A DNA stretch of 64,000 nucleotides. It comes from Polyangiaceae bacterium (lineage in GTDB: Bacteria; Myxococcota_A; Polyangia; Polyangiales; Polyangiaceae). The notes beneath the pieces are model-generated. The model was not told the DNA's origin and did not search any database. It saw only the letters and a list, made by a program, of their open reading frames with translations. Location of the stretch: assembly GCA_020849655.1 (NCBI GenBank), contig JADLFU010000088.1:1-64000 (forward strand), read 5' to 3'. Numbering within the stretch: position 1 is the first letter of the stretch; every line of letters starts with the position of its first letter. Below, piece after piece: positions 4,380 through 53,003 of this stretch. A program made the position numbers and the translations under genes.

Positions 4380-5183
4380 TCAGGGACCGGGCCGCGGGCC
4401 CGCGTGATCGTCGATGCCCCAGATGTCACCCCAGAGCGAGGAGCCGCCGTCGATGTAGTAGGTCGAGCCCGTCACGTAGTCGGCGAGATCGGACGCGAGG
4501 AACACGATCACGCGGGCGACCTCCTCGGGCGTGCCGAGGCGCTTCGCGGGGGTCGCGCGGCGCGCGGCCTCGAGCAGCGCGTCCCCGTACTGCGCGGTGC
4601 CGCTCGACACGATCGTGCCCGGCGCGACGGCGTTGACTTGCACGTGGTGCGCCGCCCACTCGACCGCGAGCGTCTTCGTCAGGTTCTCGACGCCCGCGCG
4701 CGCGGCGCCGGTGTGCACCATGCCAGGGAACCCGCGGGCGATGTCCGCGATGACGTTCACGACGCGGCCCCGGCGGGCCGGGATCATCGCGCGGGTGGCC
4801 GCGGCGCGCGTCATGTGGAACGTGCCGGAGAGGTTGTTGCGGACGACGGCCTCGAAGCCGCGCGACGACAGGTGCTCGGCGGGCGACGGGAACTGCCCGC
4901 CCGCGTTGTTGACGAGCACGTCGACGCGACCGAACGCCTCCTTCGCCGCGTCGACCAGGGCGTCACACTGCTCGGCCTCGCGGATGTCGCAGGTGCGCCC
5001 CGCTGCGCGGTCGGCGGGCAGCCCGAGCGCCGCGAGCCCCGCGTCGACCTTCTCGCGCGAGCGGCTCGCGATGACGACGCGCGCGCCGAGCGCCGTGAGC
5101 TCTCGGGCGGTCGCGAGGCCGATGCCGGTGCCGCCGCCGGTGACGATCGCGACCTGGCCGTCGAAGAGGCCAGGCCGGAACAT
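4380..5183 (-). CDS. SDR oxidoreductase, PECR/DECR-like, without the canonical Tyr
   Basis: 267-aa short-chain dehydrogenase/reductase. The cofactor motif TGGGTGIG is at 15-22 and NNAGG at 92-96. The end pattern SLWGDIWGI is shared with bacterial relatives of peroxisomal trans-2-enoyl-CoA reductase and dienoyl-CoA reductase. The usual YxxxK reads ENLTK (166-170): the Lys is kept but the catalytic Tyr is Glu. Dienoyl-CoA reductases also lack that Tyr, so activity on enoyl- or dienoyl-CoA is plausible but not shown. The ATG at 5183 is chosen; a GTG at 5201, two bases after the upstream stop, is possible. It lies between a small membrane protein and the TMTC-like gene in one operon. Confidence 0.83.
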   Translation of the reverse strand: MFRPGLFDGQVAIVTGGGTGIGLATARELTALGARVVIASRSREKVDAGLAALGLPADRAAGRTCDIREAEQCDALVDAAKEAFGRVDVLVNNAGGQFPSPAEHLSSRGFEAVVRNNLSGTFHMTRAAATRAMIPARRGRVVNVIADIARGFPGMVHTGAARAGVENLTKTLAVEWAAHHVQVNAVAPGTIVSSGTAQYGDALLEAARRATPAKRLGTPEEVARVIVFLASDLADYVTGSTYYIDGGSSLWGDIWGIDDHAGPRPGP

Positions 5184-5203
5184 CGACGCCTCGGGCTGCA
5201 CGA

Positions 5204-5776
5204 TCAGCCCCCCGTCATGCGGCAGTCGGACACGCGGCCGACCCAGGCGGAGTCCTTGTCGCCCCAGCCGGCCGTGGGCTGCCAGCGCACCTTGAAGTTC
5301 TTCAGGCGGTCCACCGGCTTGAATTTGCAGGTCGCGACGAAGCGGCGCACCTCCATCTCCTCGCGGGTGAACTTCGTCGGCGGCTCGTCCTCGATGCGCT
5401 TCTTCAGCACCGGCTGCGTGAACAGGCCGGGCACCATCACGAGCACGTTGTCGCTCGTCATGTACGGGGCGATGACGTCCTCGGGCTTGATCGGATCCGT
5501 CTGGCGCTCGCCGTTGAGCTTGAACCCGCAGCGCGCGCCGTCGACGGCCTGGTCGCTGCCGCACGACAGGCCGATCGAGTCGGCGCTGATGAGCGTGATG
5601 GCGACGTCGACGGCCTGGCCGACCTTGAACTCCGCCGGCGTCACCTCGACGGGTTTGACCCGCGCGCGCGCGGCCTCGCCCATCGTCGACCACAGGTAGT
5701 AGGCCGACAGGAGCCCCGTGACGGCGACGAAGATCCACATTTCGCGGGAGAGCTGGAGCGTTCGGATGTTCTGCAC
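5204..5776 (-). CDS. Small membrane-anchored protein of unknown function
   Basis: 190 aa from a GTG at 5776; the ATG of MWIFVAV at 5739 is an alternative start. A single hydrophobic helix lies at about residues 13-30 (MWIFVAVTGLLSAYYLW). It is followed by a soluble, probably extracytoplasmic, domain with three Cys that could form a disulfide (LSCGSDQ, ARCGFKL, ATCKFKP, and a fourth in DCRMTGG). No family is recognised. It is the first gene of the operon with the SDR and the TMTC-like protein, so it may serve the same envelope process. The promoter must lie in the 138-bp gap shared with the divergent kinase gene. Confidence 0.65.
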   Translation of the reverse strand: MQNIRTLQLSREMWIFVAVTGLLSAYYLWSTMGEAARARVKPVEVTPAEFKVGQAVDVAITLISADSIGLSCGSDQAVDGARCGFKLNGERQTDPIKPEDVIAPYMTSDNVLVMVPGLFTQPVLKKRIEDEPPTKFTREEMEVRRFVATCKFKPVDRLKNFKVRWQPTAGWGDKDSAWVGRVSDCRMTGG

Positions 5777-5914
5777 GGCGTCGTGTCCCTCTGGGGTGGC
5801 GCCCTCTACCCCGACTCCGCGCGGACCCCAAGCGCCGAGCGGCGGCGACGCCCGCGCCGAGAGAGAGAGGTTTGGCGCTTCCGTAGGCGGCGGCGCCGAC
5901 CTAACCTCCCGCCC

Positions 5915-8900
5915 GTGGCGACGAAGGAGGCAGCGCTCACGCTGAAGGCGGGCGACGTCATCGCGCAGCGGTACGAGATCGCGCGGGAGCTCGGGCGGGG
6001 GGGCATGGGCGTCGTGTACCTGTGCACCGATCGGGTGACGGGCGATCGCGTCGCCGCGAAATGCGTGTTCCTCGACAAGTCGAAGGGCGTCGCGAGCGAG
6101 GCGATCTGGTTCGAGCAGGAGGCGCGCGCGCTCGCGGCGCTCGACCACCCGACGATCGTGCGGCCCCGCGACTACGGCGCGCTCCCGGACGGCTCGCCCT
6201 TCCTCGTGATGGACGCGCTGCACGGCCGCAGCATCCACGTGTGGAAGTACCTGACGAAGCTGCCGTGGCCGGTCATCTGGTCGGTCGTCGACCAGGTGCT
6301 GGCGGGCCTCGCGCACGCGCACGCGCGCGGGGTGATCCACGGCGATCTGAAGCCCTCGAACGTGCTCATCGATCCGCGCGGCGGCGTCGAGGACCCTCGC
6401 ACGTACGTGCTCGATCTCGGCCTCGCGTGGCTGATGAACGACCACGTCGATCCGCGCCTCGGCGAGAGCCAGCTCGCCGCGCCGACGATGCCGTTCGGCC
6501 TCGGCACGCCCGGCTGGATGGCGCCGGAGCAGATCCGCCGCGCCGCGCCGCACATCGGCCCCGCGACCGATCTCTACGCGCTCGGCAGCATCGTCTTCGA
6601 GCTGCTCTCGGGGCGAGAGGTCTTCTCGGGCACCGGCCAGGAGATCCTGCGCGCGCACCGCGACACGCCCGTGACCGAGGTGTCTCCGCTGCCGCCGGGC
6701 GCGCCCGCGGAGGCCGGCGCGTGGACGGTGCGCTGCCTCGCGAAGCGGCCGTGGGACAGGTTCCGCCTGGCCGCCGACGCCCGCGCGGCCTGGGCGCCGC
6801 TCCGGCCCGAGGGCGAGATCCGGTGGGACGCGCCGAACGTCCGCGTCGGCGACGAGGACGAGTCGCCGATCTCGCTGCGCCCCGTGCCGAGCGCGTCGAA
6901 CCCCTCCGCGGCCCTCGCCCCCGGGCTGCTCGCGCTCAGGCCCACTCCGCTCGTCGGTCGCAAGCGCGAGCGCGCCGAGCTCGACGCGCGCGTCGGGGCG
7001 ATCGTCCGCGGGGAGCAGCGCCAGCACCTCGTCCTGCTGCGCGGCGAGGCGGGGGTCGGCAAGAGCCGCCTCGCCGAGTGGCTCCAGGAGCACGTGCACG
7101 AGACGGGCGCGATGATCCCGCTGCGCGCCCGGTACCGCCGCACGCCCGGCCCCTTCGACGGGATGCGCGGCGCCATCACGACGCACTTCAACCTGCGCGG
7201 CGTCGCGCGCGACGTGATCGAGCAGGCCCTCCTGAACGAGTGGGAGGTCGAGCCGTCCGACGAGCAGGGCCGCACGTGGGTCGCCGCGGCGGCCGCGTGG
7301 CTGAAGCCGCTGTCCGCGGACGAAGAGGCGCGCGTCGGCCCGTCGGGCAAGCGTTTTTTCCTTGACAAGGCAGAGCTTCGATGGGTCGTGATCCGGCACG
7401 TCCTCGAGCGCGTCGCCGCGACGGGGCGGCCGCTCCTCTTGTGGGTCGACGATCTCCACCTCGCGTCCCCGAACACGTTCGCCGGGCTGACGGCGCTGCA
7501 CCGCGACGCGAAGGAGCTGCCCCTGCTCTTCCTCGCGACGGTGCGCGACGAGGCGCTGGCGGCCGATCCGGCGGCCTCGAGGCGGGTGAAGGAGCTGCTG
7601 GAGGCCATCCCCTCGACGACGCTCTCGGTCGCGCCGCTCGACGACGAGGAGACCCGCGCGCTGCTCGCCGCCTCGCTGCCGCTCGCGGAGGACGCCGAGG
7701 CCACGGCGGTGATGAGGAGCCACGGCAACCCGCTCTACGCGCTGCAGCTCGTGCACTCCTGGGCGTCGTCGGGCCAGCTGTCGCTCGACGGCGGCGCGTA
7801 CCGGGTGCCGGCGGCGGCGCTCGCGCGGGCCGCGAAGACCACCGCCGAGCTGTTCGACGAGCGGATGGCGGCGCTGCCCGCCCAGCTGCGCCCCGCGGCG
7901 TTCGCGGCCGCCGCGCTCGGTGAGGTGCTCCACGCCGAGGGGCTCGGCAGGATGCTCCAGTCGATGGGGCTCGAGGTCCGCCCGACGCTGCGGGCGCTGC
8001 AGGAGGCGCAGGTGCTGCTCGTCAGCCGCAGCGGTCGGCTGCGCTGGCCGCACGCGCTCCTGCAGGAGCACGTGCTCGCGCGCCTCGCGGAGCAGCCCGA
8101 CGCGAAGAAGATCCACCGCCTCGCCGCCGACGCGCTCGCGACCTACCCCGACGCGGGCTCACGGCGGATCGTGCGACAGCGCGCGGCGAACCTCCAGCGC
8201 GCCGGGGACGACGCACAGGCCGCGCGCCTCGTCCTCGACTTCGTCGCGCACGCGTGGCGCCGCGCCCGCGAGGTGGGCTGGATCAAGCGCGACCTCGAGG
8301 TGCTGGACGGCCGCGTGCACGGCGAATTGCTGGGCGAGCAGCTGCGCTGGCGCGCGGAGGTCGAGCGGCACATGGGCGAGCTGACGCAGGCGCGCCGCGA
8401 CGCGGAGGAGGCGCGCAGGCTGCTCTCGGCGCTCGGCCGCCAGCAGGACGAGGCGCACTGCCTCCGGCTGCTCGCGCACATCGCGTCCGATCAGGGCGTG
8501 CCCGCGCTCGGCCGCATCGAGGCCTTGCTCGCGCACGCGACCTTCGTCCAGATCGGCGACGACCACGGGCGCGCGCAGGTCGAGGTGCTGCTCGGCGAGA
8601 TCGAGTACCTGCTCGGCGACCACGCGAGCGCGAGGCTGCACCTCGGGAACGCCGCGCTCACGCTCCGCAAGGCGGGCGACACGCTCGTGCTCGCCCAGTG
8701 CTACATCCTCCTGTCGCTGGTGGAGCAGGCCGTCGGCCGCCTCGAGCCGGCGCGCGAGCTGCTCACGCTGGCCCGCGCGGAGTTCGACGCCATCGGCTAC
8801 CAGCTCGGGCTCGCGCAGACCGACGTCGTGCTCGGGCACGTCGAGCACCGCGCGTTCGAATTCGACGCCGCGTACGCCCGCGCGAGGGAGACGCGCCAGC

Positions 8901-9418
8901 GCTTCGTCGGGATGGCGACCCCCCGCGGCGAGGCGGCGTGCGAGCGGCTGCTCGCGATGGCCTCGCTCGATCGCGGCGACACCGCGGCCGCGCTCCGGCA
9001 CGCGCTCGCGGCCTACGCCGTGTTCGACGAGCGCCTCGCCGATCCGTGGGGGCGCGTGGAGGCGTCGCTCCTGCTCGCGCAGGTCGCGCTCGCGGAGGGC
9101 TCGATCGACCGCGCGCGCGAGCACCTCGACGCCGCCCGCGCGATCGAGCTCGACGAGTCCGAGCCGACGCAGCACCGCCACCTGACCAGCGCGTGGCTCG
9201 CCCTCGTCGAGGCAGACCACGCGCGCGCAGAGGAGGAGCTGGGCATGGCGCGGACGGCGTTCCCCGACAGGCGCCGCACGGGGGATCACACGCCTGCGCT
9301 GCTGGTTCGCCTCGCGACGCTCGCCGCGGGCACATCGGCCGCGGAGGTGATCGACGAGTGGCAGCGGTTCCTCGCCGCGGCGCCCGCGCTCTCCACGCCG
9401 GTGCCGCCGCCGCCCTGA
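5915..9418 (+). CDS. Ser/Thr protein kinase fused to AAA ATPase and TPR repeats
   Basis: 1167-aa regulator with three parts. Residues 20-280 are a Hanks-type kinase: Gly loop GRGGMGVVY, Lys in AAKCVF, HGDLKPSN in place of HRDLKPEN, DLG in place of DFG, and GTPGWMAPEQ. From about 345 comes an AAA_16 domain with Walker A GEAGVGKS (about 377) and Walker B LLLWVDDLH (about 507). From about 790 to the end there are helical TPR-like repeats. The catalytic Asp is kept, so it is probably an active non-RD kinase. No membrane segment is seen. The architecture resembles STAND-type sensors. The GTG at 5915 is preferred; an earlier in-frame start would add an Arg-rich, non-coding-looking head. It is divergent from the operon at 5776. 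Confidence 0.88.
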   Translation: MATKEAALTLKAGDVIAQRYEIARELGRGGMGVVYLCTDRVTGDRVAAKCVFLDKSKGVASEAIWFEQEARALAALDHPTIVRPRDYGALPDGSPFLVMDALHGRSIHVWKYLTKLPWPVIWSVVDQVLAGLAHAHARGVIHGDLKPSNVLIDPRGGVEDPRTYVLDLGLAWLMNDHVDPRLGESQLAAPTMPFGLGTPGWMAPEQIRRAAPHIGPATDLYALGSIVFELLSGREVFSGTGQEILRAHRDTPVTEVSPLPPGAPAEAGAWTVRCLAKRPWDRFRLAADARAAWAPLRPEGEIRWDAPNVRVGDEDESPISLRPVPSASNPSAALAPGLLALRPTPLVGRKRERAELDARVGAIVRGEQRQHLVLLRGEAGVGKSRLAEWLQEHVHETGAMIPLRARYRRTPGPFDGMRGAITTHFNLRGVARDVIEQALLNEWEVEPSDEQGRTWVAAAAAWLKPLSADEEARVGPSGKRFFLDKAELRWVVIRHVLERVAATGRPLLLWVDDLHLASPNTFAGLTALHRDAKELPLLFLATVRDEALAADPAASRRVKELLEAIPSTTLSVAPLDDEETRALLAASLPLAEDAEATAVMRSHGNPLYALQLVHSWASSGQLSLDGGAYRVPAAALARAAKTTAELFDERMAALPAQLRPAAFAAAALGEVLHAEGLGRMLQSMGLEVRPTLRALQEAQVLLVSRSGRLRWPHALLQEHVLARLAEQPDAKKIHRLAADALATYPDAGSRRIVRQRAANLQRAGDDAQAARLVLDFVAHAWRRAREVGWIKRDLEVLDGRVHGELLGEQLRWRAEVERHMGELTQARRDAEEARRLLSALGRQQDEAHCLRLLAHIASDQGVPALGRIEALLAHATFVQIGDDHGRAQVEVLLGEIEYLLGDHASARLHLGNAALTLRKAGDTLVLAQCYILLSLVEQAVGRLEPARELLTLARAEFDAIGYQLGLAQTDVVLGHVEHRAFEFDAAYARARETRQRFVGMATPRGEAACERLLAMASLDRGDTAAALRHALAAYAVFDERLADPWGRVEASLLLAQVALAEGSIDRAREHLDAARAIELDESEPTQHRHLTSAWLALVEADHARAEEELGMARTAFPDRRRTGDHTPALLVRLATLAAGTSAAEVIDEWQRFLAAAPALSTPVPPPP

Positions 9419-39930: not shown

Positions 39931-41661
39931 TCAGAGCTTGTCGATGAGCTTCGAGAAGAAGCCTCCGACGCCCGGCACCTGGAGCCCGTTGGGCTCGTAG
40001 ACGTCGGCGATGACCTCCTTCACGTACTTCTTCTCGCTGCTGCCCTCGAACTTGCGGTCCTCGTCCTTCATGCACAGCCAGTGCGCGCGCGCCAGCTTCT
40101 CGGCCACCTGATCGACGCTCGCGAACCGCGGGTTGGCGCCCTCTCCCGGGCTCTTCAGGATCGAGATCGCCTTGTAGAACCCGTAGGCCGGCGTGCCGTC
40201 GGCGGCGACCGTCCGCGGGAAGAGCCGCTTCGCCTCCTCGACGAGCTGCGGCGGCTGCATCGCGCGGGCGGCCTCGATGAGCTGCTTCGCCCCCTCGAAG
40301 AGCTCGTCCGCGCTGGCCTTGTTGTTCGACGCGGCCTGCGCGAGCTGCTGCTGGGTGAGGTCGGCCTGCGCGCGGATCTGCGCGAGCATCTCGGGCGTCG
40401 GCTCGATGCCCTGCATGCGGTAGCCCGCGATCGATTTCTGCGCGACGAACTCCGCCGAGAGCTTCGCGTCGCCCTGGATCGCGAGGTCCCAGTCGACGAC
40501 GCGCGCGGCGTACCCGAGCACCGCGCCCGGGCCGCTCGGGACGGGCTGGTTCCACCGCTGACACAGGGCGACGAGCGCGCCCTCCGCGTTCGCGCCCGCT
40601 GTCATCAACGCGCGTTCGCGCTCGGCCGTCAGCTGCGCGTACTGCTCGAGCGTGAGGCCGCCGAGGGTGCGACCGCCGGCGTTGCCCGGGACGTACGGCT
40701 GGAACGACGCTGCGTCCTTGCGCGAGAGACAGAGGAACGAGTAGCCCTCGCCCTCGCGCGCATCGAGCTCGTAGTAGAGCGCCTGCCACTCGCCCGGCTC
40801 GACGCGGACGACCCACGCGCCCGGCGCGGCCATGCGCGCGTCGAGGCCGGGGACGTTCGTCGAGAGGGGCGCGGCCGCGCGCGCGCCCAGGTACTGGTGG
40901 AACGCCGCCGCAGGATCGCCGCCGCCCGCGGGCGCCAGGAGCTCGCGCCCCGACGCGCGCGCCCAGCCAGCGACGAGGAAGCCGCTGTCCATGCGGAAGA
41001 AGCTCGAGTGCTTCCGACGCTCCGCGCGCGGCATCCCCTGCGAGATCACGGGCTCGGGCTCGTGGCGAGGGGAGTAGACGATGACCACGTGCTCGGCCGC
41101 GCCCGACGCGCCGGGCGCCATCGCGAGGTAACAAACATCACTCGCCGTGTAGTACGTGACGAGGAACGGCCCGTCCTCGCGCGCCGGATCGGCGTTGAAC
41201 CTGCGGATGCCTTCGGTGGTGCGGACCGCGATCTGCAGATCGGTCATCCGGTCGAAGAAGAGGCGCATCACCTCGGTGTCGCCGTTCTGGAAGAAGCGCT
41301 CGGCGCGGCCGTCGGGCACGTTGAGCGGCGTGACGTCACGGCCGTCGTACGCCTGCACGCCGGGGAACCGCGCGAGCAGGTGCGCCCTCAGCGTCTCGTA
41401 CATCTGCGCGGCCGCGTCGCGCGACGCGTGGTAGCGCCAGGTCTCGGCGTTGGGCGTCGGCCAGTCGCGCAGCAGCTCCACCGCGGGCCCCTGCGCCCGA
41501 CACAGCCAGCGCGCCCCGAGATCGTGGCCGCTCCACAGCGACACGTCGCGTGCGTCGCCGGCGACGAACACGCCCTCGGACTCGCTCAGCCGCTCGAGCT
41601 CCGTGGGCGCGGGGACTCTGGAGGTGTTCGCGATGGGGCCGAGGAGGGTGAGACCGGGCAT
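39931..41661 (-). CDS. Unrecognised 576-aa protein
   Basis: Protein starting with ATG at 41661, without signal peptide. The first 350 residues are mixed alpha/beta with LFFDRMTDLQIAVRTTEG, PFLVTYYTASDVCYLAMAPG and WVVRVEPGEWQALYYELD. The following part is helical (TPEMLAQIRAQADLTQQQLAQAA), and it ends in GVGGFFSKLIDKL. Domain matches are not obvious, and no catalytic signature is visible. It is transcribed alone, convergent with the Cys-rich mini-lipoprotein and divergent from the epimerase. It may be a regulator or a secretion-related protein, but nothing in the sequence decides this. Confidence 0.68.
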   Translation of the reverse strand: MPGLTLLGPIANTSRVPAPTELERLSESEGVFVAGDARDVSLWSGHDLGARWLCRAQGPAVELLRDWPTPNAETWRYHASRDAAAQMYETLRAHLLARFPGVQAYDGRDVTPLNVPDGRAERFFQNGDTEVMRLFFDRMTDLQIAVRTTEGIRRFNADPAREDGPFLVTYYTASDVCYLAMAPGASGAAEHVVIVYSPRHEPEPVISQGMPRAERRKHSSFFRMDSGFLVAGWARASGRELLAPAGGGDPAAAFHQYLGARAAAPLSTNVPGLDARMAAPGAWVVRVEPGEWQALYYELDAREGEGYSFLCLSRKDAASFQPYVPGNAGGRTLGGLTLEQYAQLTAERERALMTAGANAEGALVALCQRWNQPVPSGPGAVLGYAARVVDWDLAIQGDAKLSAEFVAQKSIAGYRMQGIEPTPEMLAQIRAQADLTQQQLAQAASNNKASADELFEGAKQLIEAARAMQPPQLVEEAKRLFPRTVAADGTPAYGFYKAISILKSPGEGANPRFASVDQVAEKLARAHWLCMKDEDRKFEGSSEKKYVKEVIADVYEPNGLQVPGVGGFFSKLIDKL

Positions 41662-43671: not shown

Positions 43672-44280
43672 TCACGCGCGGCGAGCGCGCAGGCGACCGA
43701 GCAGCGCGGCCGCGTCGACCGGCGCCGCCACCGGTCGGAGCGGGCGAGCGCGCAGGCGGGCGAGCGCGTCGGCGGCGTCGCCCGAGTCGACGACGGACGC
43801 GCCGCTCGCGGCACCCTCCTCGACGTGCGCGACCTCCCCGGAGGGCGGCGGCACCGGGCCGGACTCGACCGGCGGGGGAGGCTCGACGGGCGCCACGGCG
43901 CGCGCGTCGCTCGCGTCCGAGACGAGATCGGGGATCACGGGCGCGGGTGACGGCGAGGAGGCCGCGGCGCGCTCGCGCAGCACGCGCTCGACGATCACCT
44001 TGCCGTGCGGATCGAGGCGCGTGAACCTGACGTCGAGCCCGCCTGGGTGGGCGCCGTCACGCGCGCGGTGCTGCGTCACCCTGCCCTCGCCGCGGAACAG
44101 CGGGGCGCCGTCGCGGAGCGCGACCTCGAACCTCACGACGAGCCCGACCGGGCGCGCCCCCGCGCCGATCAAGGTCATGCCGCCCCTCTCGATGTGCGCG
44201 CCGTCGCCCGCCACGAACTCGTCCTCGGTCGCGTACGGGCGACGCAGACGAAACGCGACCGGCGGCTGGGCCTCGCTCAC
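43672..44280 (-). CDS. PilZ-domain protein (TIGR02266-like)
   Basis: 202 aa from a GTG at 44280. The first 100 residues are a PilZ-like fold of the kind abundant in myxobacteria (EDEFVAGDGAHIERGGM, VRFEVALRDG, FRGEGRVTQH, GGLDVRFTRLDPHGKVIVERVL). The c-di-GMP-binding RxxxR and DxSxxG motifs are not clear, so nucleotide binding is uncertain. The rest is a Pro/Ala/Ser linker with a short helical end (ALLGRLRARRA). The gene lies 39 bp downstream of the J-domain gene on the same strand. Confidence 0.72.
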   Translation of the reverse strand: MSEAQPPVAFRLRRPYATEDEFVAGDGAHIERGGMTLIGAGARPVGLVVRFEVALRDGAPLFRGEGRVTQHRARDGAHPGGLDVRFTRLDPHGKVIVERVLRERAAASSPSPAPVIPDLVSDASDARAVAPVEPPPPVESGPVPPPSGEVAHVEEGAASGASVVDSGDAADALARLRARPLRPVAAPVDAAALLGRLRARRA

Positions 44281-44319: not shown

Positions 44320-46050
44320 TCACTTCTTCTTCAGGCGATCGAGCAGCCCCGCGAACGGGATGTTCGACGCGGGTTTGTCGGGCTTCTCGCCGCCGTGCCG
44401 CATCTCGTAGACGCGAATCTCCCGCTCGGCGTCGAGGTTGCGCGGATCGAGCTCGAGGAGCTTGCGGAAGTCCCGGACGGCGCGCGCGTCGTTGCCGACC
44501 CGCTTCAGCAGCGCGCCGCGGTACTGGAGCGCGCGCTGGTGGTTCGGCTCGGACGCGAGCAAGAGATCGAGCTGCTCGATGCACCGGGCGAGGTCGTCCG
44601 GCTTCGGCTGCCCCGAGATCGCCGCCACCCAGACGTCGAGCACCTTGTAGTCGATCTGATCGGGATCCTTCGCGCGGGCGCGCTCGCCGTACTTTCGCGC
44701 GCCGGCGAGATCGCCGCGCTTCAGGCACACCTCGGCGCGCTGGAAATCCATCTGGGCCTCGATGACCGCGGCGACCTTCGCCTGCTCCTCGGGCGTCGCG
44801 CCGCCGCCCTTCATGAGGTTCATGTACTGGGCGCGCTTCTCGGGATCGCTCAGCGTCTGGAACGCCTCGCTCATGCGCGAGAACACCTTGGCGGCCTGCT
44901 CCCGGACCTCGCCGAGCTGCTCGGGGAGGCGGTCGGGGTGCCAGCGCTTCGCGAGGCCGAAGTACGCGGACTGCACGACCTCCGGCGGCGAGTCGAGCGC
45001 GACGCCGAGCATCGCGAAGTACGTCTCGCCGTCGATCTTCGCCGCGCGATCCCGGATCTCCTGCCGACGCTCCGCGAGGCCGGGCGGCAGCGACGCCGGG
45101 GGCGACGCGGCCCGCGCCTCCTCCGCGATGGCGGCGGTGATGCTGCGCAGATCCGTGACGCCGCTCGGAGGGCGCGCCGCGGGCGGGCGCGGGGAGCCCC
45201 TCGGCGCGAGCAGCGGCCCGTCCTCGTCCTCGACGCCGACCGGCGCCTTGCCCGTCCCGAGATCGAGGTGCCGCGTGAGCAGGAAGGCGTAGACGATGAG
45301 GCGCACGTCGAGCTCGTCTGCGACGCCCGCGGAGAGCAGCCCGGCGAGCGGCATCGGGCGCACCTTCAGGATCTCGACGATCCCTCGGCCGCGGTCGAGC
45401 AGCCGGAAGCGCCTGAGATCTCCGCGCACGTGGAGCCGCAGCTTCGCGTCGCCGAGCCCGCGCAGCGCCGCGTCGACGCGCGGATCGAACGGCCGGGCGC
45501 GCACGCCGCGCACGACGAGCGAGAGGCCGTCGATCGTCGTCGACTCGGGCGCCCCCCAGCGCTCCAGCAGGTTGACGCCCGCGTAGAACGCGTAGGCCGT
45601 CTCGTCGGGAAGATGAAACAGGTGCGCCACCTTCCGCGAGAGGCTCTCGCGCAGCCCCGCGAGCAGGCCGTCAGCGTCGACGAGCCCACGCTGGAGCAGC
45701 TCCTCTCCGACGAGCCGCCTCGCCAGCGCGGCGGCCTCGCACGCCTCCTCGACCGCCGCGGGATCGAGCGGCACGATCTCCGAGAGCACCGCGCCCAGCC
45801 GCGCGACCTCGCCCGCGACGCGCGCCTTCGCGGGGTGGCCCGCCTCGAAGAACACCGCGTGGCGGTGGCGGTCGGGCGACTCGAGCACGAGCGTGCCCGA
45901 GAGGCGACGGTCGAGCACGTACACGACGAGGTTGACGAGGGGCGTCTTGTCGAGGGTACCGCTAGCGGTGGCGACGGGCGCTTCGGCCAAGGTGGGGCCG
46001 GAGCATAGTCGCGCTCCGCTACTTGCAGTCCTTGATGAAGACTCCTCCAC
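44320..46050 (-). CDS. DUF4388-J-domain-TPR fusion protein
   Basis: About 576 aa. The N-terminal 150 residues are DUF4388-like (GTLDKTPLVNLVVYVLDRRL, GTLVLES, AVFFEAGHP). Residues about 365-440 are a DnaJ domain with the essential HPD (KRWHPDRLPEQL), able to stimulate Hsp70 ATPase. The C-terminus has TPR-like helices. It is a soluble protein that may link a signalling module with the DnaK chaperone. The start is uncertain: a GTG at 46050, used here, lies 32 bp inside the upstream kinase gene, while a TTG at about 45994 (LAEAPVATASG) is an alternative. It is co-transcribed with the pseudokinase and its lipoprotein. Confidence 0.8.
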   Translation of the reverse strand: MEESSSRTASSGARLCSGPTLAEAPVATASGTLDKTPLVNLVVYVLDRRLSGTLVLESPDRHRHAVFFEAGHPAKARVAGEVARLGAVLSEIVPLDPAAVEEACEAAALARRLVGEELLQRGLVDADGLLAGLRESLSRKVAHLFHLPDETAYAFYAGVNLLERWGAPESTTIDGLSLVVRGVRARPFDPRVDAALRGLGDAKLRLHVRGDLRRFRLLDRGRGIVEILKVRPMPLAGLLSAGVADELDVRLIVYAFLLTRHLDLGTGKAPVGVEDEDGPLLAPRGSPRPPAARPPSGVTDLRSITAAIAEEARAASPPASLPPGLAERRQEIRDRAAKIDGETYFAMLGVALDSPPEVVQSAYFGLAKRWHPDRLPEQLGEVREQAAKVFSRMSEAFQTLSDPEKRAQYMNLMKGGGATPEEQAKVAAVIEAQMDFQRAEVCLKRGDLAGARKYGERARAKDPDQIDYKVLDVWVAAISGQPKPDDLARCIEQLDLLLASEPNHQRALQYRGALLKRVGNDARAVRDFRKLLELDPRNLDAEREIRVYEMRHGGEKPDKPASNIPFAGLLDRLKKK

Positions 46051-47497
46051 ACTTCTTCTTCGGAGGAGCCGCGGTCGTCGGGCGGTCGGGGGTCTTCGAG
46101 AGCGACAGCGCGCGCGTGAGCTCGTCGCCGGCCTTGACGGTGAAGCTGTCGGTCGCGGGCAGGTGATCCTTCTTCTTGCCGACGCAGCTGTGCTTGCCCG
46201 GCGACAGCTCGACGGCGCCGCCCTCGACGGGCTTGCCGTCGCACGCGAGCTCGTCGCACTCGGGCGTGCAGGTGAAGGTCACGCGCGCCGTCGTCGGAGC
46301 GGGCGCGGGGGCGGAGGCGGCGGGCGCGGGGGCGCTCTCGGCCGGCGGGGCAGAGGCGGCGGGCGTGGGCTCAACGGACGCGGACGACGCGGGCTCCGTC
46401 GCCGGCGCGTCGGGAGACCGAAGCAACAGCACCCCCGCGGTGACGATCCCGCCGAGGACCACGAGCGCGCCGAGTCCTCCGAGCACGAGCGGCAGCGCGC
46501 TCTTCTTCTTCGGCGGAGGATCGTCCTCGACGATCGGCGCGGCGGCGACGCCGAGGGCTTGCGGCGGGGCCGCGGGCGGCGCGCTCCCCTGTGCGCTCAT
46601 GGCCTGCGCGACGATCGCGGGGCCGGCGGCGCCGAGCATCACGGTGCCCCCGAACTTGCGCGCGGTGAGCTGGCCGAGCGCCGCCGCCGCCTCCTCTGCG
46701 CTCGCGTAGCGCGCGCCCGGGGACACCGCGAGCGCCCGCGCGAAGAACGGATCGAGCTGGGGAGAGATCGCGGCGCCGAGCTCCCGGGCGCGCGCCGAGA
46801 GCGCGGGCAGCTCGGTGGTCATCTCCGCCCAGAGGCGCCCCGCGTCGAACGAGCCCGCCGCGAGCGACGAGAACGGTGACTTGCCGGTCAGCGCGAAGAA
46901 CAGCAAGACGCCCAGCGACCACACGTCCATCGACGGCGACGGCGGGGCCCCCTGCGCGAGCTCGGCCGGCGCCCACCCGTACGCGATGGGCCCTGACGGC
47001 GGCGGCGCGGCGGCGCGCAGACCGGCCACGCCGACGTCGGACACCGAGACGCTCGTGCCCGCGGTGAACACGTTCGACGGCACGAGCCCGCGGTGCACCA
47101 CGGAGGCGCCGTGCAGCGCCGACGCGATCGCGGCCGCGCCCTTCACGACGACGATCGCGCGGTCCTGCGTCAGCGGCCCCGACGTCGAGACCTCGGCGGC
47201 GAGCGACGGCCCCTCGGCGAGCGCCGTGAGGACGAACGGCGCGCCGGTCGTCGCGTCGACGCCCGCGTCCCAGACCCGCAGCACGCCCGGCACCTCGGCG
47301 ACCCGCTGCGCCTCGTGCAGAAAGGCGGCCCACGCGGGCGTGCCGGCGAGCTCTCTGCGGAACGATTTCAGCGCGTAGACGGCGCCGCTCGCCTGATCGC
47401 GCGCGCGGACCACCTCGCCCATCGGGCCCTCGCCGATCGGCGCGACGACCTCGTAGCGCCCCGAGACGACGTGCCCCACCGGGAGGCGCTCGCTCAC
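46019..47497 (-). CDS. Membrane Ser/Thr pseudokinase with PEGA-like C-terminal domain
   Basis: 492 aa. The kinase-fold region shows a Gly loop GEGPMG (22-27), Lys44 (YALKSF) and Glu62, but HRD reads HRG (135-137), so the catalytic Asp is missing, and DFG reads DVG (154-156). It is therefore probably an inactive pseudokinase. A membrane helix lies at about 310-335 (LPLVLGGLGALVVLGGIVTAG). An Ala/Pro linker follows, then a small Cys-containing PEGA-like domain (TCTPECDELACDGKPV). The GTG start overlaps the stop of the lipoprotein gene upstream. The J-domain gene follows and overlaps by 32 bp. Confidence 0.85.
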   Translation of the reverse strand: MSERLPVGHVVSGRYEVVAPIGEGPMGEVVRARDQASGAVYALKSFRRELAGTPAWAAFLHEAQRVAEVPGVLRVWDAGVDATTGAPFVLTALAEGPSLAAEVSTSGPLTQDRAIVVVKGAAAIASALHGASVVHRGLVPSNVFTAGTSVSVSDVGVAGLRAAAPPPSGPIAYGWAPAELAQGAPPSPSMDVWSLGVLLFFALTGKSPFSSLAAGSFDAGRLWAEMTTELPALSARARELGAAISPQLDPFFARALAVSPGARYASAEEAAAALGQLTARKFGGTVMLGAAGPAIVAQAMSAQGSAPPAAPPQALGVAAAPIVEDDPPPKKKSALPLVLGGLGALVVLGGIVTAGVLLLRSPDAPATEPASSASVEPTPAASAPPAESAPAPAASAPAPAPTTARVTFTCTPECDELACDGKPVEGGAVELSPGKHSCVGKKKDHLPATDSFTVKAGDELTRALSLSKTPDRPTTAAPPKKKCGGVFIKDCK

Positions 47498-48138
47498 GGC
47501 GCGACCCTCAACGTGCCGAGCGCGTCCATGATCGCCGGCGCGTCGCCCTCGGCGCCCTCCCCGACGAAGCACAGGCCCACGACGACCTTCCCCGCGAACG
47601 ATCCTGACACGACGAGCGCGGTGCCGGCCTTGTCCTTGCGCTTCGGCGCGGCGCCTTGCTTCTCCTTGCTGATCTCCCAGAGCTTCAGCTGCCCGTCGTC
47701 GACGACGCGGTCGGGCCGCTTCCAGCGCGCCTTCAGCGAGGCCGGCTTCACGCCCGTGACGTCGAGCGAGGCGCCGAGGGCCGAGAGCGCCACCTGCGCG
47801 GCGTCGTGCGTGTCCGCGTCGGCGTGCGCGAACGCCATCACCGCGTCGCCGCTCGCCGACACCGTGACCGTGCGCGCCGCCTCGCGCGCGTACGTCCAGC
47901 CCGGCGGCGGACGCAGCGTCAGCCCCTCCGATCCGATCGCGAGCTTCGTGTCGGCGGTCGCGCGGCACCCCTCGGACAGCGCCTCGCATTTCGGGGGCGG
48001 CGGTGGAGGCGGCGGCTCCGGCTTCGGAGCCTCCACGGCGGGAGGCGGCGCGGGAGGCGGCGGCTCGGGCGGCTTTGGCTTCGAGCACGCCGCGGCCGAG
48101 AGAGCGAACAAGCAGAGGAGCGCGCGGGCAGAGGACAC
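47494..48138 (-). CDS. Pro-rich lipoprotein of unknown function
   Basis: 214 aa from a GTG at 48138. The signal peptide ends in LSAAAC (Cys18). A linker of about 30 residues of Pro, Glu and Lys spans a gap in the envelope, and a globular domain of about 160 residues contains WTYAREAARTVTV, ALGASLDVTGVK and VVGLCFVGEG. No family is recognised. It is the first gene of the operon with the membrane pseudokinase, so it may be the outside partner of that protein. It is divergent from accC across 47 bp. Confidence 0.72.
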   Translation of the reverse strand: MSSARALLCLFALSAAACSKPKPPEPPPPAPPPAVEAPKPEPPPPPPPPKCEALSEGCRATADTKLAIGSEGLTLRPPPGWTYAREAARTVTVSASGDAVMAFAHADADTHDAAQVALSALGASLDVTGVKPASLKARWKRPDRVVDDGQLKLWEISKEKQGAAPKRKDKAGTALVVSGSFAGKVVVGLCFVGEGAEGDAPAIMDALGTLRVAP

Positions 48139-48185
48139 GGGTGGCGGCTGTGTACTACGTTTCGGCGCCCTCCCGCACCGCCCAC

Positions 48186-49529
48186 ATGTTCAAGAAGATC
48201 CTGATCGCCAACCGAGGCGAGATCGCCGTCCGCATCATCCGCGCGGGCCGCGAGCTCGGCGTGCGCAGCGTCGCCGTGCACTCCGAGGCCGACGCGGGCG
48301 CGCTCCACACCCGCCTCGCCGACGAGGCCGTCTGCATCGGCCCGGCCCCCGCCGCGAAGAGCTACCTGAACATCCCGGCGCTCATCAGCACGGCCGAGAT
48401 CACCGGCGCCGACGCCGTGCACCCCGGCTACGGGTTCCTGTCGGAGAACCCGCACTTCGTCGACGTCGTCGAGAAGTGCGGCCTGACCTTCATCGGGCCG
48501 AGCGCCGCCGCGATGCGCGCGTGGGGCGACAAGGTGACCGCCCGCGAGAACGCGCAGCGGTTCGGGCTGCCGCTCCTGCCGGGCTCGAAGGGGCTCGCGT
48601 CGCCCGAGGACGCCGAGCGCCGCGCGCGGGAGGTCGGGTTCCCCGTCATCATCAAGGCCTCGGGCGGCGGCGGCGGCCGGGGCATGCGGGTCGTGCACGA
48701 GGAGGGCAGCGTCGCGCACGCGTTCGCCGCGGCGACCGCCGAGGCCGCGGCGAGCTTCAAGAACCCGGAGGTGTACCTCGAGAAGTACCTCGGCGAGCCG
48801 CGGCACATCGAGTTCCAGGTGCTCGCCGACGAGCACGGCGGCGTCTGGACGCTCGGCGAGCGCGAGTGCTCGCTGCAGCGCCGCAACCAGAAGATCATCG
48901 AGGAGTCGCCGAGCCCCAACGTCGACGACGCGCTCCGCGCGAGGATGGGAGAGATCATCCGGCGGGCGATGCGAGAGACGGGCTACACCGGGCTCGGCAC
49001 GCTGGAGTTCCTGATGGACGAGCAGAAGAACCTGTTCTTCATGGAGATGAACACCCGCCTCCAGGTCGAGCATCCGGTCACCGAGGCGACGACGGGCGTC
49101 GATCTCGTCGAGCTGCAGATCCGCGCGGCCGCGGGCGAGCGGCTCACGCTCCCCGACACGCGCGGGTGGAGCTTCCGCGGGCACGCGATCGAGTGCCGCA
49201 TCAACGCCGAGGATCCGCGCTCGTTCGCGCCGTGGCCCGGCCTCATCACCGAGTATCACCCGCCCGGCGGCGCGGGCGTGCGCGTCGACAGCGGCGTGTT
49301 CGGAGGGTTCCGGGTGCCGGCCGCGTACGACTCGCTGATCGCCAAGATCATCACCCACGGGCGCACGCGGGACGAGGCCATCCGCCGCATGCAGCGCGCG
49401 CTCTCGGAGCTGATCGTCGGCGGCATCCGCACGAACATCTCGCTGCACCAGCTCTTGCTCTCCGACCCCGAGGTCGTGGCGGGCAAGATGACGACGCGGA
49501 CGATCGAGCGCGTGCTCGCGCGCACGTGA
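48186..49529 (+). CDS. accC: Acetyl-CoA/acyl-CoA carboxylase biotin carboxylase subunit
   Basis: 447 aa, the usual AccC length. It carboxylates biotin on the carrier protein using ATP and bicarbonate. Motifs include KILIANRGEIAVRI at the start, HPGYGFLSEN, the ATP-grasp loop KASGGGGGRGM, ERECSLQRRNQK, FMEMNTRLQVEHPVTE and AIECRINAEDP. The carrier accB is not adjacent, so the partner must be encoded elsewhere; membership in a propionyl-CoA or other acyl-CoA carboxylase is possible. It is the first gene of a long plus-strand run, and its stop overlaps the next GTG. Confidence 0.93.
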   Translation: MFKKILIANRGEIAVRIIRAGRELGVRSVAVHSEADAGALHTRLADEAVCIGPAPAAKSYLNIPALISTAEITGADAVHPGYGFLSENPHFVDVVEKCGLTFIGPSAAAMRAWGDKVTARENAQRFGLPLLPGSKGLASPEDAERRAREVGFPVIIKASGGGGGRGMRVVHEEGSVAHAFAAATAEAAASFKNPEVYLEKYLGEPRHIEFQVLADEHGGVWTLGERECSLQRRNQKIIEESPSPNVDDALRARMGEIIRRAMRETGYTGLGTLEFLMDEQKNLFFMEMNTRLQVEHPVTEATTGVDLVELQIRAAAGERLTLPDTRGWSFRGHAIECRINAEDPRSFAPWPGLITEYHPPGGAGVRVDSGVFGGFRVPAAYDSLIAKIITHGRTRDEAIRRMQRALSELIVGGIRTNISLHQLLLSDPEVVAGKMTTRTIERVLART

Positions 49530-50518: not shown

Positions 50519-51150
50519 GCGCCCGCCTGCTGTACGAGGACGACGCGGTGATCGCGGTCGACAAGCCCGCTGGCACGGCGAGCATCCGCGAGCGCGACGT
50601 CTCCGCGCCCTGCCTCCACGTCGAGCTCGAGCGGGCGCGCGGCGAGCGGCTGTTCGTCGTGCACCGGCTCGACAAGGAGGTCTCCGGCGTCATCCTCTTC
50701 GCGCGGACGGCGGCCGCGCACCGCGCCCTGTCGATGTCGTTCGAGGCGCGCGAGGTCGACAAGCGCTACCACGCGATCGTCGACGGCGCGCTCGAGGGTG
50801 AGCGCGCGGTCACGCTGTCGCTGCGCGAGTTCGGCTCCGGGAGGGTCGGGGCGGACGCCCTGCGAGGCAAGCCGTGCGAGACGCGCGTGTCGCTCGTCGC
50901 GCAGGGCGGCGGCGTCTCGCTCGTGGACGCGCAGCCCATCACGGGCCGTCGCCACCAGATCCGCGCGCACCTGTACGCGATCGGTCACCCCATCCTCGGC
51001 GACCGACGCTACGGTGACGGGGCGCGCGCGGCGACGGAGCCGCGGCTGTTCCTCCACGCGCGGGAGCTCAGCGTGCCCCACCCCACGACCCGAGAGCGGC
51101 TGAAGGTGTCCTGCGCGGCGCCCGAGGCTTTCAGCGAGCGGCTTCGATGA
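50515..51150 (+). CDS. RluA-family pseudouridine synthase
   Basis: 211 aa, shorter than RluC/RluD because the S4 domain is missing. The catalytic Asp lies in HRLDKEVSG (about 45), and the family segments VDKPAG, ITGRRHQIRAHL and HPILGDRRYG are present. It isomerises uridine in rRNA or tRNA; the target site is not predictable. The GTG start overlaps the methyltransferase stop, and its own stop overlaps the next ATG. Confidence 0.87.
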   Translation: MSARLLYEDDAVIAVDKPAGTASIRERDVSAPCLHVELERARGERLFVVHRLDKEVSGVILFARTAAAHRALSMSFEAREVDKRYHAIVDGALEGERAVTLSLREFGSGRVGADALRGKPCETRVSLVAQGGGVSLVDAQPITGRRHQIRAHLYAIGHPILGDRRYGDGARAATEPRLFLHARELSVPHPTTRERLKVSCAAPEAFSERLR

Positions 51151-53003
51151 ACCTCGACGCCACGGTCGACGCGCGCGTCCTCACCCTGTCGGCCGTGACG
51201 ACGCTGGTCAAGGCGCGCCACACGATCGTCCCGGGGGGAGCGGCGTCCTTCGCGGTCGACGACGCCCTCGCGGGCGTGGCGCGCTCGACGGGCCGCGTGC
51301 GCGTGGACGGCGTGATCGGCGAGGGGGGCATGGGGCGCGTCAACCTCGGCACGCAGCTGACGCTCGGCCGCGCCGTCGCGATCAAGACGCTGAAGAGCGA
51401 GGTCGCCGGCCCCGACGCGACCCGCGGCCTCTTGCGAGAGGCGTGGATCACCGGGGCGCTCGAGCACCCGAACGTGATCCCGATCTACGATCTGGACGTC
51501 GACGCGGCGGGCCTGCCGTACTTCGTGATGAAGCGCGTCGAGGGGGCGTCGTGGCTCGAGCTCCTCGGGCAGCCGGGCGAGGTCGCCGCGCGCTTCGGCG
51601 AGGCCGACCCGCTCCTGTGGAACCTCGGCGTGCTCTCCGACGTCGCGCGCGCGGTCCACTTCGCGCACACGCGCGGCATCCTGCACCGCGATCTGAAGCC
51701 CGAGAACGTGATGATCGGAGGCTTCGGCGAGGTGTACCTCGTCGACTGGGGCATCGCGGTCGCGGTCGCCGACGACGTCGATCCGCGGCTCCCGCGCGCG
51801 CGCGACGCCGTCGAGCTCGCGGGGACGCCGAGCTACATGGCGCCCGAGATGCTCTCCGGCGGACCGGCGCTCGGCCCGCACACCGACGTCTACCTGCTCG
51901 GGGCGACGCTCTACGAGGTGCTCGTCGGCGAGCCGCCGCACCGAGGCGATCACATGCGCGCGCTCGTCGCCAGCATCGTGCTGTCGGAGCCCGACGTCCC
52001 CGCCCACGTCCCGGACGAGCTCGCCGCGATCATCCGCCGCGCGATGGCGCGCGACCCCGCCGCGCGACACGAGAGCGCCGATGCGTTTCGGCGGGACGTC
52101 GAGAGCTTCCTGCGGCACCGCGGCTCGACCCGCCTGTCGACGGCCGCGTGGGACACTGTCGAGCGGCTCGCCGTGGTGGCGCGGGGCGCGACCTCGACCG
52201 ACCGCGCCCGCCTCTACGATCTGCTCGGCGAGTGCCGCTTCGGCTTCCGCGCCGCGAGGGAGGCGTGGGCCGAGAACCCGGCGGTGACCGACGGCCTCGA
52301 CCGCGCGCTCGCCGAGATGGTAGAGTTCGAATTGTTGCAATCGAACCCGCGCGCCGCGGCCTCGCTGCTCGACGAGATGAAGGCGCCGCCGGCCGCGCTG
52401 TCGGCGCGCGTGCGCGCCCTGCTCGCCGATCGAGCGCGAGAGGAGGCGGAGGCCGAGCGCCTGCAGGAGATCGGTCGCGAGATGGATCCCACGCGGGGCT
52501 GGCGCACGCGCTCGTTCGTCGCGGGCACGCTCGGCATGACGTGGACGCTGCTCTGCTACTTCGCGCCGAGGCTCGAGCACGATCCGACGCACCTCTCCTC
52601 CTTCGTGATGACGCTCGCGATGGCGGGCGTCGTCGTCGTCGTCGGCGTGTGGGCGCGCCAGACGCTGAGCCAGACGCTCGTGAACCGCCGGGGGTACGCG
52701 ACGCTGCTCGTGACCATCCTCGTGCAGCTGGTGTTCCTCGCGGGCGCGGGGCCGCTCGGGCTCTCGGTGCACACCGCGCGGACGATGTACCTGCTCCTGT
52801 GGGGCATCGCGCTCGCGTACTCGACGGTGCACGTCGACAACCGCCTGTGGCCGGCGATGCTCGTGCCGTTCGCGAGCTTCTTCGCCGCGATCAGGTTCCC
52901 CGGCGCGCTCTACAGCCTGATGGCGCTCGGGAACCTCGTGTTCACCGTCAACGTGCTCGCGGTCTGGATCCCGTGGCGGCAGCTCGTCGCGTCTCGTCGC
53001 TGA
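51147..53003 (+). CDS. Membrane Ser/Thr protein kinase
   Basis: 618 aa. The N-terminal kinase (about 50-330) has GEGGMGRV, Lys in VAIKTL, HRDLKPEN, DWG in place of DFG and APEM, so it should be active. A helical linker (about 340-450) precedes a C-terminal membrane region of about five helices (LCYFAPRL to LVFTVNVLAVWIPW) with no extracytoplasmic sensor domain, unlike PASTA-type kinases. The ATG overlaps the pseudouridine synthase stop (ATGA). The 3' end overlaps the amylase lipoprotein start by 31 bp. The substrates are unknown. Confidence 0.88.
   Translation: MNLDATVDARVLTLSAVTTLVKARHTIVPGGAASFAVDDALAGVARSTGRVRVDGVIGEGGMGRVNLGTQLTLGRAVAIKTLKSEVAGPDATRGLLREAWITGALEHPNVIPIYDLDVDAAGLPYFVMKRVEGASWLELLGQPGEVAARFGEADPLLWNLGVLSDVARAVHFAHTRGILHRDLKPENVMIGGFGEVYLVDWGIAVAVADDVDPRLPRARDAVELAGTPSYMAPEMLSGGPALGPHTDVYLLGATLYEVLVGEPPHRGDHMRALVASIVLSEPDVPAHVPDELAAIIRRAMARDPAARHESADAFRRDVESFLRHRGSTRLSTAAWDTVERLAVVARGATSTDRARLYDLLGECRFGFRAAREAWAENPAVTDGLDRALAEMVEFELLQSNPRAAASLLDEMKAPPAALSARVRALLADRAREEAEAERLQEIGREMDPTRGWRTRSFVAGTLGMTWTLLCYFAPRLEHDPTHLSSFVMTLAMAGVVVVVGVWARQTLSQTLVNRRGYATLLVTILVQLVFLAGAGPLGLSVHTARTMYLLLWGIALAYSTVHVDNRLWPAMLVPFASFFAAIRFPGALYSLMALGNLVFTVNVLAVWIPWRQLVASRR

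Follow-up and report, generated by a model that had tools for sequence, protein, structure and literature searches.

Receptor Ser/Thr kinases of the PknA/PknB type are the closest solved folds to the subject of this report, a kinase-like membrane protein that lacks the catalytic Asp and whose gene directly follows a gene for a predicted lipoprotein. The pair lies in a stretch of 64,000 nucleotides (here called the window; G+C ~74%) that comprises positions 1 to 64,000 of contig JADLFU010000088.1 (C88) from the 6.56-Mb draft genome of a Polyangiaceae bacterium (GCA_020849655.1). PknB crosses the membrane once and ends in an external C-terminal domain. The window protein shares with this type the N-terminal kinase fold (Z 28-30) and, by prediction, the same layout of span and external domain; it differs in the absence of the HRD Asp, in the absence of a PASTA match, and in the lipoprotein gene directly upstream. 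The lipoprotein in turn is predicted to resemble in fold the Mog1/PsbP-fold envelope proteins (PsbP, LpqN, Apa, DcrB, and Tsi3), several of which are exported or lipid anchored, although structural alignments of the lipoprotein model to proteins of this fold give only ~10-15% identity and its sequence has no Pfam or NCBIfam match. To our knowledge, a kinase-like partner is not a feature of this group.

Bacterial pseudokinases with a Ser/Thr kinase fold and lost catalytic residues have been described as the families ActPs1-3, GLW, CP1, DYD, and DLHK, several of them membrane bound (O'Boyle et al. 2025, PMC12599244; this and later statements refer to the available portions of that paper). These families diverge in all three catalytic motifs or in the ATP- and metal-binding motifs, and the function of most bacterial Ser/Thr pseudokinases is obscure (PMC12599244). 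The window protein differs from them in that mainly the HRD Asp has been lost and a lipoprotein gene stands upstream. CP1 includes some members with a single degraded motif, but its proteins have no membrane span and carry a linked COG3899 ATPase domain (PMC12599244), whereas the window protein has one predicted span and matched kinase families only in a Pfam scan. EssB/YukC, likewise a pseudokinase that spans the membrane once, has a structural role without catalysis, but belongs to Firmicutes type VII secretion and is degraded in all three motifs (PMC12599244). In the available text of PMC12599244, no family is described in which a dedicated lipoprotein and a single membrane span accompany loss of the HRD Asp. 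Searching the same text for the words Myxo-, Deltaproteo-, and lipoprotein returned nothing. A literature search on bacterial and myxobacterial pseudokinases and kinases, PEGA, PsbP, and Mog1 lipoproteins, and DUF4388/DnaJ proteins, whose coverage excluded most subscription papers, returned no title or abstract start among the matches listed that described the pair.

Conservation of the pair and loss of the catalytic Asp

The N-terminal part of the kinase-like protein matched PF00069 with E=5.4e-21 and 75.6 bits, against a curated cut-off of 31.7. It retains a glycine loop (GEGPMG), the beta-3 Lys (ALK), the Asn of the catalytic loop, and the DFG Asp (as DVG), and its HEA aligns with the alpha-C Glu of PknB. 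Both the catalytic Asp and the Lys of the catalytic loop are gone, the loop reading HRGLVPSN. The protein thus lacks the HRD Asp by which an active Ser/Thr kinase is recognized, and it is a pseudokinase under the definition given in the available portions of PMC12599244, namely loss of at least one of the beta-3 Lys, HRD Asp, and DFG Asp; here the HRD Asp is lost and the other two are kept. Sequencing noise is an unlikely source of the HRG, since the nearest relative of the protein (69% identity) carries an identical HRGLVPSN.

To place the pair in a wider context, we built a lipoprotein profile from 10 rows (alignment A1) and searched genomes with a match threshold of E 1e-6. Of 183 genomes from the order Polyangiales, 48 had a match, at 51 places in all: 45 of 108 genomes of the window's own family, 3 of 5 of another family, and 0 of the remaining 70. 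Among 377 genomes drawn from the phylum, 13 gave a match, all of them from the same order. These searches score a limited number of candidates per genome, so that absences are no proof. We read 49 of the 51 places, including the window and omitting one at a contig edge (G117) and a weak second match in G082; three of those read (L113, L115, and L128) reach contig ends.

A kinase-like gene lies directly downstream of the lipoprotein gene, on the same strand, at 46 of the 49 loci, one per genome and spread over 23 genera; the other three are two weak lipoprotein matches with no partner (L147 and L148) and one locus whose downstream protein has no kinase domain (L146). The distance from the lipoprotein stop to the kinase-like start is 8 bp or less in 44 of the 46, and the two genes overlap by 4 bp in 30, a count that leans toward this value because the candidate start codon nearest to a 4-bp overlap was chosen. 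On the evidence of these sequences, the lipoprotein and the pseudokinase form a conserved module.

Of the 46 pair kinases, 29 have Ala, 12 Gly, 2 Ser, and 3 Asp at the position of the catalytic Asp. The preliminary description of the window had held that orthologues with an intact HRD would speak against a pseudokinase; such orthologues do occur, in 3 of the 46 members and 2 of the 23 genera (L129 and L138, of one genus, and L131), but the Asp is missing from the other 43. In L129 and L138 the spacing to the lipoprotein gene is also looser, at 28 and 31 bp. Other residues of the nucleotide site are largely kept: the loop Asn in 45 of 46, the DFG Asp in 43 (Glu in the other 3), and the beta-3 Lys in 36, another 7 having Arg there. 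When a tree was inferred with the Asp column removed, the 46 pair kinases grouped in a single clade (99/97), apart from the 16 other kinases of these loci that were included; the tree has long branches. The Asp state changes three times on this tree, which does not distinguish a retained from a regained Asp in L129/L138 and L131. The ratio of nonsynonymous to synonymous substitution rates (dN/dS) in the kinase domain ranged from 0.06 to 0.55 over 12 comparisons, 11 between Asp-lacking members and 1 between the Asp-keeping pair, and by this measure the domain is under purifying selection in all 12.

The loss stands out against other kinases. At the pair loci, 16 of 17 other kinases keep the Asp; the 17 include a weak fragment with HGA (L129_3) that was excluded from the tree. 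In the window's genome, 66 of 70 other kinases that were read, the best 30 plus 40 weaker ones of 151 Pkinase matches, keep it as well. The remaining four of these 70 (L248, L251, L254, and L256) are further kinase-like proteins that lack the HRD Asp, and three of them also deviate at the beta-3 Lys or the DFG Asp. Compared with 89 other kinase rows, the pair kinases have characteristic residues of their own, among them W175 (85% vs 5%) and E225 (93% vs 8%), together with conserved D218, R236, and G241. By our reading of the modeled fold, these appear to lie near the P+1 loop and the alpha-G/H region, a usual docking area.

Predicted envelope parts of the two proteins

The pseudokinase has one strong hydrophobic segment, at residues ~334-359, with KKK just before it. 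Its structural model has a mean predicted local distance difference test score (pLDDT) of 81.6, with values above 90 in most blocks of the kinase part, and displays a complete kinase fold, a helix compatible with a membrane span (residues 342-358), and a small beta domain (residues 404-465). Hydropathy and model together point to a one-pass topology in which the kinase domain would be cytoplasmic and the Cys-containing domain periplasmic. A Pfam scan of the protein matched kinase families only, with no match for the C-terminal beta domain and none to PASTA, and the NCBIfam model PknB_PASTA was not reached (99 bits vs a cut-off of 450).

In all 37 aligned rows, two Cys of the C-terminal region are invariant, and most rows have a second Cys pair. 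The alignment (A5) comprises 37 of 47 sequences; among the 10 omitted are L129 and L138, which keep the Asp, as well as near-copies and truncated rows. When the region was used as a profile, 47 strong matches (E<=1.2e-15) were returned; 44 fall at lipoprotein loci, and the other 3 at contig ends, beyond which any upstream genes would lie. At L146 (a second copy, in G109:C353), an ATG overlapping the lipoprotein stop opens a 397-aa protein (L146:5226-6416) that consists of linker, membrane span, and Cys domain; no kinase domain was found in it, even with all search filters off. The envelope half can therefore exist without the kinase domain.

At its N-terminus the lipoprotein has a signal peptide that ends in AAAC. 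Its lipobox Cys18 is invariant in the 10 rows of A1, and a simple automated lipobox pattern was found in 37 of 47 sequences, with a Cys after a hydrophobic run visible by eye in several of the 10 misses. A larger lipoprotein alignment (A3) contains 44 of the 49 loci. The lipoprotein model (pLDDT 94.2) gave Z scores of 9.9 with Tsi3, 9.8 with BT_1490, 9.3 with PsbP, 9.0 with Apa, 8.0 with LpqN, and 7.7 with Mog1p, a resemblance to Mog1/PsbP folds that is consistent with membership but is not proof of it.

Possible roles of the module

We favor, with a probability of roughly 0.6, the reading that the pair is a non-phosphorylating lipoprotein-receptor module to which the J-domain gene of the window is a local addition. 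Its two-gene core would pair an exported lipoprotein, whose Mog1/PsbP-like domain sits on a proline-rich tether, with a membrane protein that crosses the bilayer once and carries its pseudokinase on the cytoplasmic side. The lipoprotein would bind the periplasmic Cys-containing domain of its partner and thereby alter the conformation or pairing of the pseudokinase. Instead of phosphorylating substrates, the pseudokinase may, when loaded with nucleotide, serve as a scaffold or as an allosteric partner, for instance to one of the many active kinases in the cell. Topology, contact between the two proteins, nucleotide binding, inactivity, and output are all inferred. That lipoprotein and receptor cooperate at the envelope is suggested by their recurrence as a pair, by how tightly the genes are spaced, and by the external parts that both partners have. 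The replacement of the Asp by only Ala, Gly, or Ser in the 43 members, together with the family-specific residues, suggests that the cytoplasmic part has been kept for binding and not for phosphotransfer; to judge from the retained Lys, Asn, and Asp, nucleotide binding is probably preserved in most members.

Several observations weigh against this reading. The nucleotide-site residues kept in most members would also suit an alternative chemistry, and because three members retain the Asp, those of their two genera may be active. At most 10 loci share any third gene, so the neighborhood gives no hint of an output. Nor is there an enrichment of other kinases nearby, with 15 in 617,680 flanking bases against ~14 expected, the latter a crude figure derived from 151 kinases per 6.56 Mb of the window's genome by a count that used different profiles. 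Ten neighbor proteins that were scanned share no output (N-formylglutamate amidohydrolase family, ABC transporter parts, a phage-type integrase, hydrolases, and an FGE-sulfatase domain, with four lacking a match). Finally, weaker matches to the C-terminal domain (E 1e-4) were present in all 183 genomes, so this domain has many distant relatives and is not diagnostic by itself.

The likeliest alternative to the lipoprotein-receptor reading is that the kinase domain is not dead but carries out another ATP-dependent reaction, such as nucleotidyl transfer as in SelO, or weak phosphotransfer without the HRD Asp. In residue pattern, the one feature compared, the window protein is like SelO, which keeps the Lys, Asn, and DFG Asp and has lost the HRD Asp (WHLK, Hgvmntdn, and DYG in the available Table 1 of PMC12599244), and the near-universal Asn and DFG Asp of the pair kinases agree with such a function. 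Such chemistry is possible for members with the nucleotide site, but it fits poorly with the genera that have lost more of that site and with the kinase-less copy. Two genera, g46 and g47 (L132, L141, and L142), have lost the beta-3 Lys too (replaced by T, H, and E), L142 has Cys in place of the Asn and EYG in place of DFG, and the glycine loop is degraded in many members; as a general account we consider it unlikely. Another proposal, that these are former kinases decaying without a present role, draws on the members that have lost several catalytic residues, yet the frames are open in 46 genomes (three of them cut by contig ends), the spacing to the lipoprotein gene is tight, the loop Asn and DFG Asp persist in nearly all, and the purifying selection, with dN/dS below 0.6 in every comparison, speaks strongly against it. 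We give decay hardly any credence. It is likewise very improbable, if slightly less so, that the lipoprotein is a Tsi3-like immunity protein and that the pair belongs to a system of interbacterial conflict: Tsi3 chains are indeed its top fold matches (Foldseek E 1.8e-4), but BT_1490, PsbP, and Apa trail them by no more than about 1 Z unit, at 46 of 49 loci the lipoprotein is partnered by a kinase-like receptor, and no toxin family reached its cut-off among the ten neighbor proteins scanned, one of which, an ABC ATPase, touches AAA_21 (whose title names AbiEii) below the cut-off.

The preliminary description had proposed that the pseudokinase, co-transcribed with the lipoprotein and a DUF4388-J-TPR protein, relays an envelope signal to the Hsp70 system without phosphorylation. 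The features on which it drew were confirmed: all three genes are where it had placed them, with the HRG and an intact HPD, although a fourth gene on the same strand had been missed. The J protein has DUF4388, DnaJ, and TPR matches (PF00226, E=1.5e-12), its gene follows closely on the same strand, and the gene order recurs in G001, whose J protein is 79% identical. A J and a TIGR02266 homologue adjoin the pair, however, at only 2 of the 49 loci, the window and G001, which belong to one genus; at 6 of the 49, less than 0.7 kb is visible downstream of the kinase-like gene and a J gene there would have escaped notice. All of 39 relatives have a J-protein match, though in several it covers parts such as the J domain only. 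In the stretches read around six J orthologues in other genomes, a kinase-like gene was present in two and the lipoprotein in none, and G019 and G018, which have the two closest J relatives from other genera, are genomes with no lipoprotein match. One of the six (L150:1949-3766) has a DnaJ domain match but no HPD tripeptide. Of the proposed route, the envelope signal without phosphorylation is still reasonable, the Asp being mostly missing and the protein tied to an envelope lipoprotein, whereas the Hsp70 arm is not supported. The J gene looks like an optional local neighbor of the pair. Given that it adjoins the pair in a single genus among the loci read, and that no lipoprotein was present in the stretches read around its orthologues elsewhere, an Hsp70 route would be at most a feature of the window's genus; it is unsupported, and we regard it as improbable.

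Extending the lipoprotein-receptor reading further, one might imagine that a family of one-pass receptors abandoned phosphotransfer long ago while keeping the nucleotide site, that the lipoprotein signal is now converted into pure allostery or into other ATP chemistry such as nucleotidyl transfer, and that one lineage went on to discard the kinase domain, keeping the lipoprotein and a receptor stub. This is speculative, and as a complete scenario we think it rather doubtful. The pair does offer a whole pseudokinase family that arrives with a candidate partner, identified by gene order, and a natural gradient of members in which the Asp is kept, the Asp is lost, more of the site is lost, or the kinase domain is absent. 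With these natural variants, the role of a bacterial pseudokinase becomes directly testable.

Gene order and neighbors in the window

Four successive minus-strand genes encode the lipoprotein, the pseudokinase, the DUF4388-J-TPR protein, and a TIGR02266-like protein (Table 1). From the kinase stop to the likely TTG of the J gene there are 28 bp, and a further 39 bp separate the J gene from the TIGR02266-like gene. This spacing suggests that the genes are co-transcribed. The TIGR02266 match of the fourth gene (E=5.8e-10, 39.2 bits) lies below the curated cut-off of 68.7.

Table 1. Coordinates of the features of the pair and of the genes downstream (positions in the window)
Feature	Position	Strand	Basis or remark
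Lipoprotein gene, 214 aa	47494-48138	minus	Signal peptide, Cys, proline-rich linker, then predicted Mog1/PsbP-like domain
Predicted Mog1/PsbP-like domain of lipoprotein	47497-47994	minus	Model pLDDT 94.2 and fold matches
Transmembrane pseudokinase, 492 aa	46019-47497	minus	GTG start overlapping lipoprotein TGA by 4 bp
PknB-like kinase fold, aa 1-281	46655-47497	minus	PF00069; PknA 4ow8 Z 30.0; PknB 5u94 Z 28.8; PknB E=6.3e-25
HRG replacing HRD; catalytic-loop Lys replaced by Val (HRGLVPSN)	47087-47095	minus	Sequence
Single predicted membrane span, aa ~334-359	46421-46498	minus	Hydropathy; positive charges on kinase side; model helix 342-358
Predicted periplasmic beta domain, aa 404-465	46103-46288	minus	PEGA-like by eye only; C-x3-C pair in the window protein
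C-terminal CGGVFIKDC motif of pseudokinase	46025-46051	minus	Both Cys invariant in 37/37 aligned rows
DUF4388-J-TPR gene	44320-45990	minus	Likely TTG start at 45990 (our choice); earlier open reading frame call began at 46050
HPD of J domain	44932-44940	minus	Sequence
TIGR02266-like protein, fourth gene of likely operon	43672-44280	minus	Profile match under cut-off

A promoter scan yielded no candidate. Four terminator-like matches were found, every one of them within genes (shuffled sequences gave 1.0, standard deviation 1.0). Between the lipoprotein start and a divergent biotin carboxylase gene there are ~47 bp (48139-48185), assuming that the latter begins with the ATG at 48186; an operon promoter region would consequently be very short or sit inside the biotin carboxylase gene.

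A kinase at 51147-53003 of the window has an intact HRD and a hydrophobic C-terminal half, and is near the operon in G001 too (77% identity). A large kinase-AAA-TPR protein (5144-9415; HGDLKPSN) lies ~37 kb from the pair, and relatives of it (~45% identity over 1,100 aa; L072:12158-15619 and L073:1519-6333) are located at most ~2 kb from the pair in G024 and G017. The window also encodes a conserved 576-aa protein without a Pfam match (39931-41661), which is 86% identical to its G001 counterpart over 433 aa.

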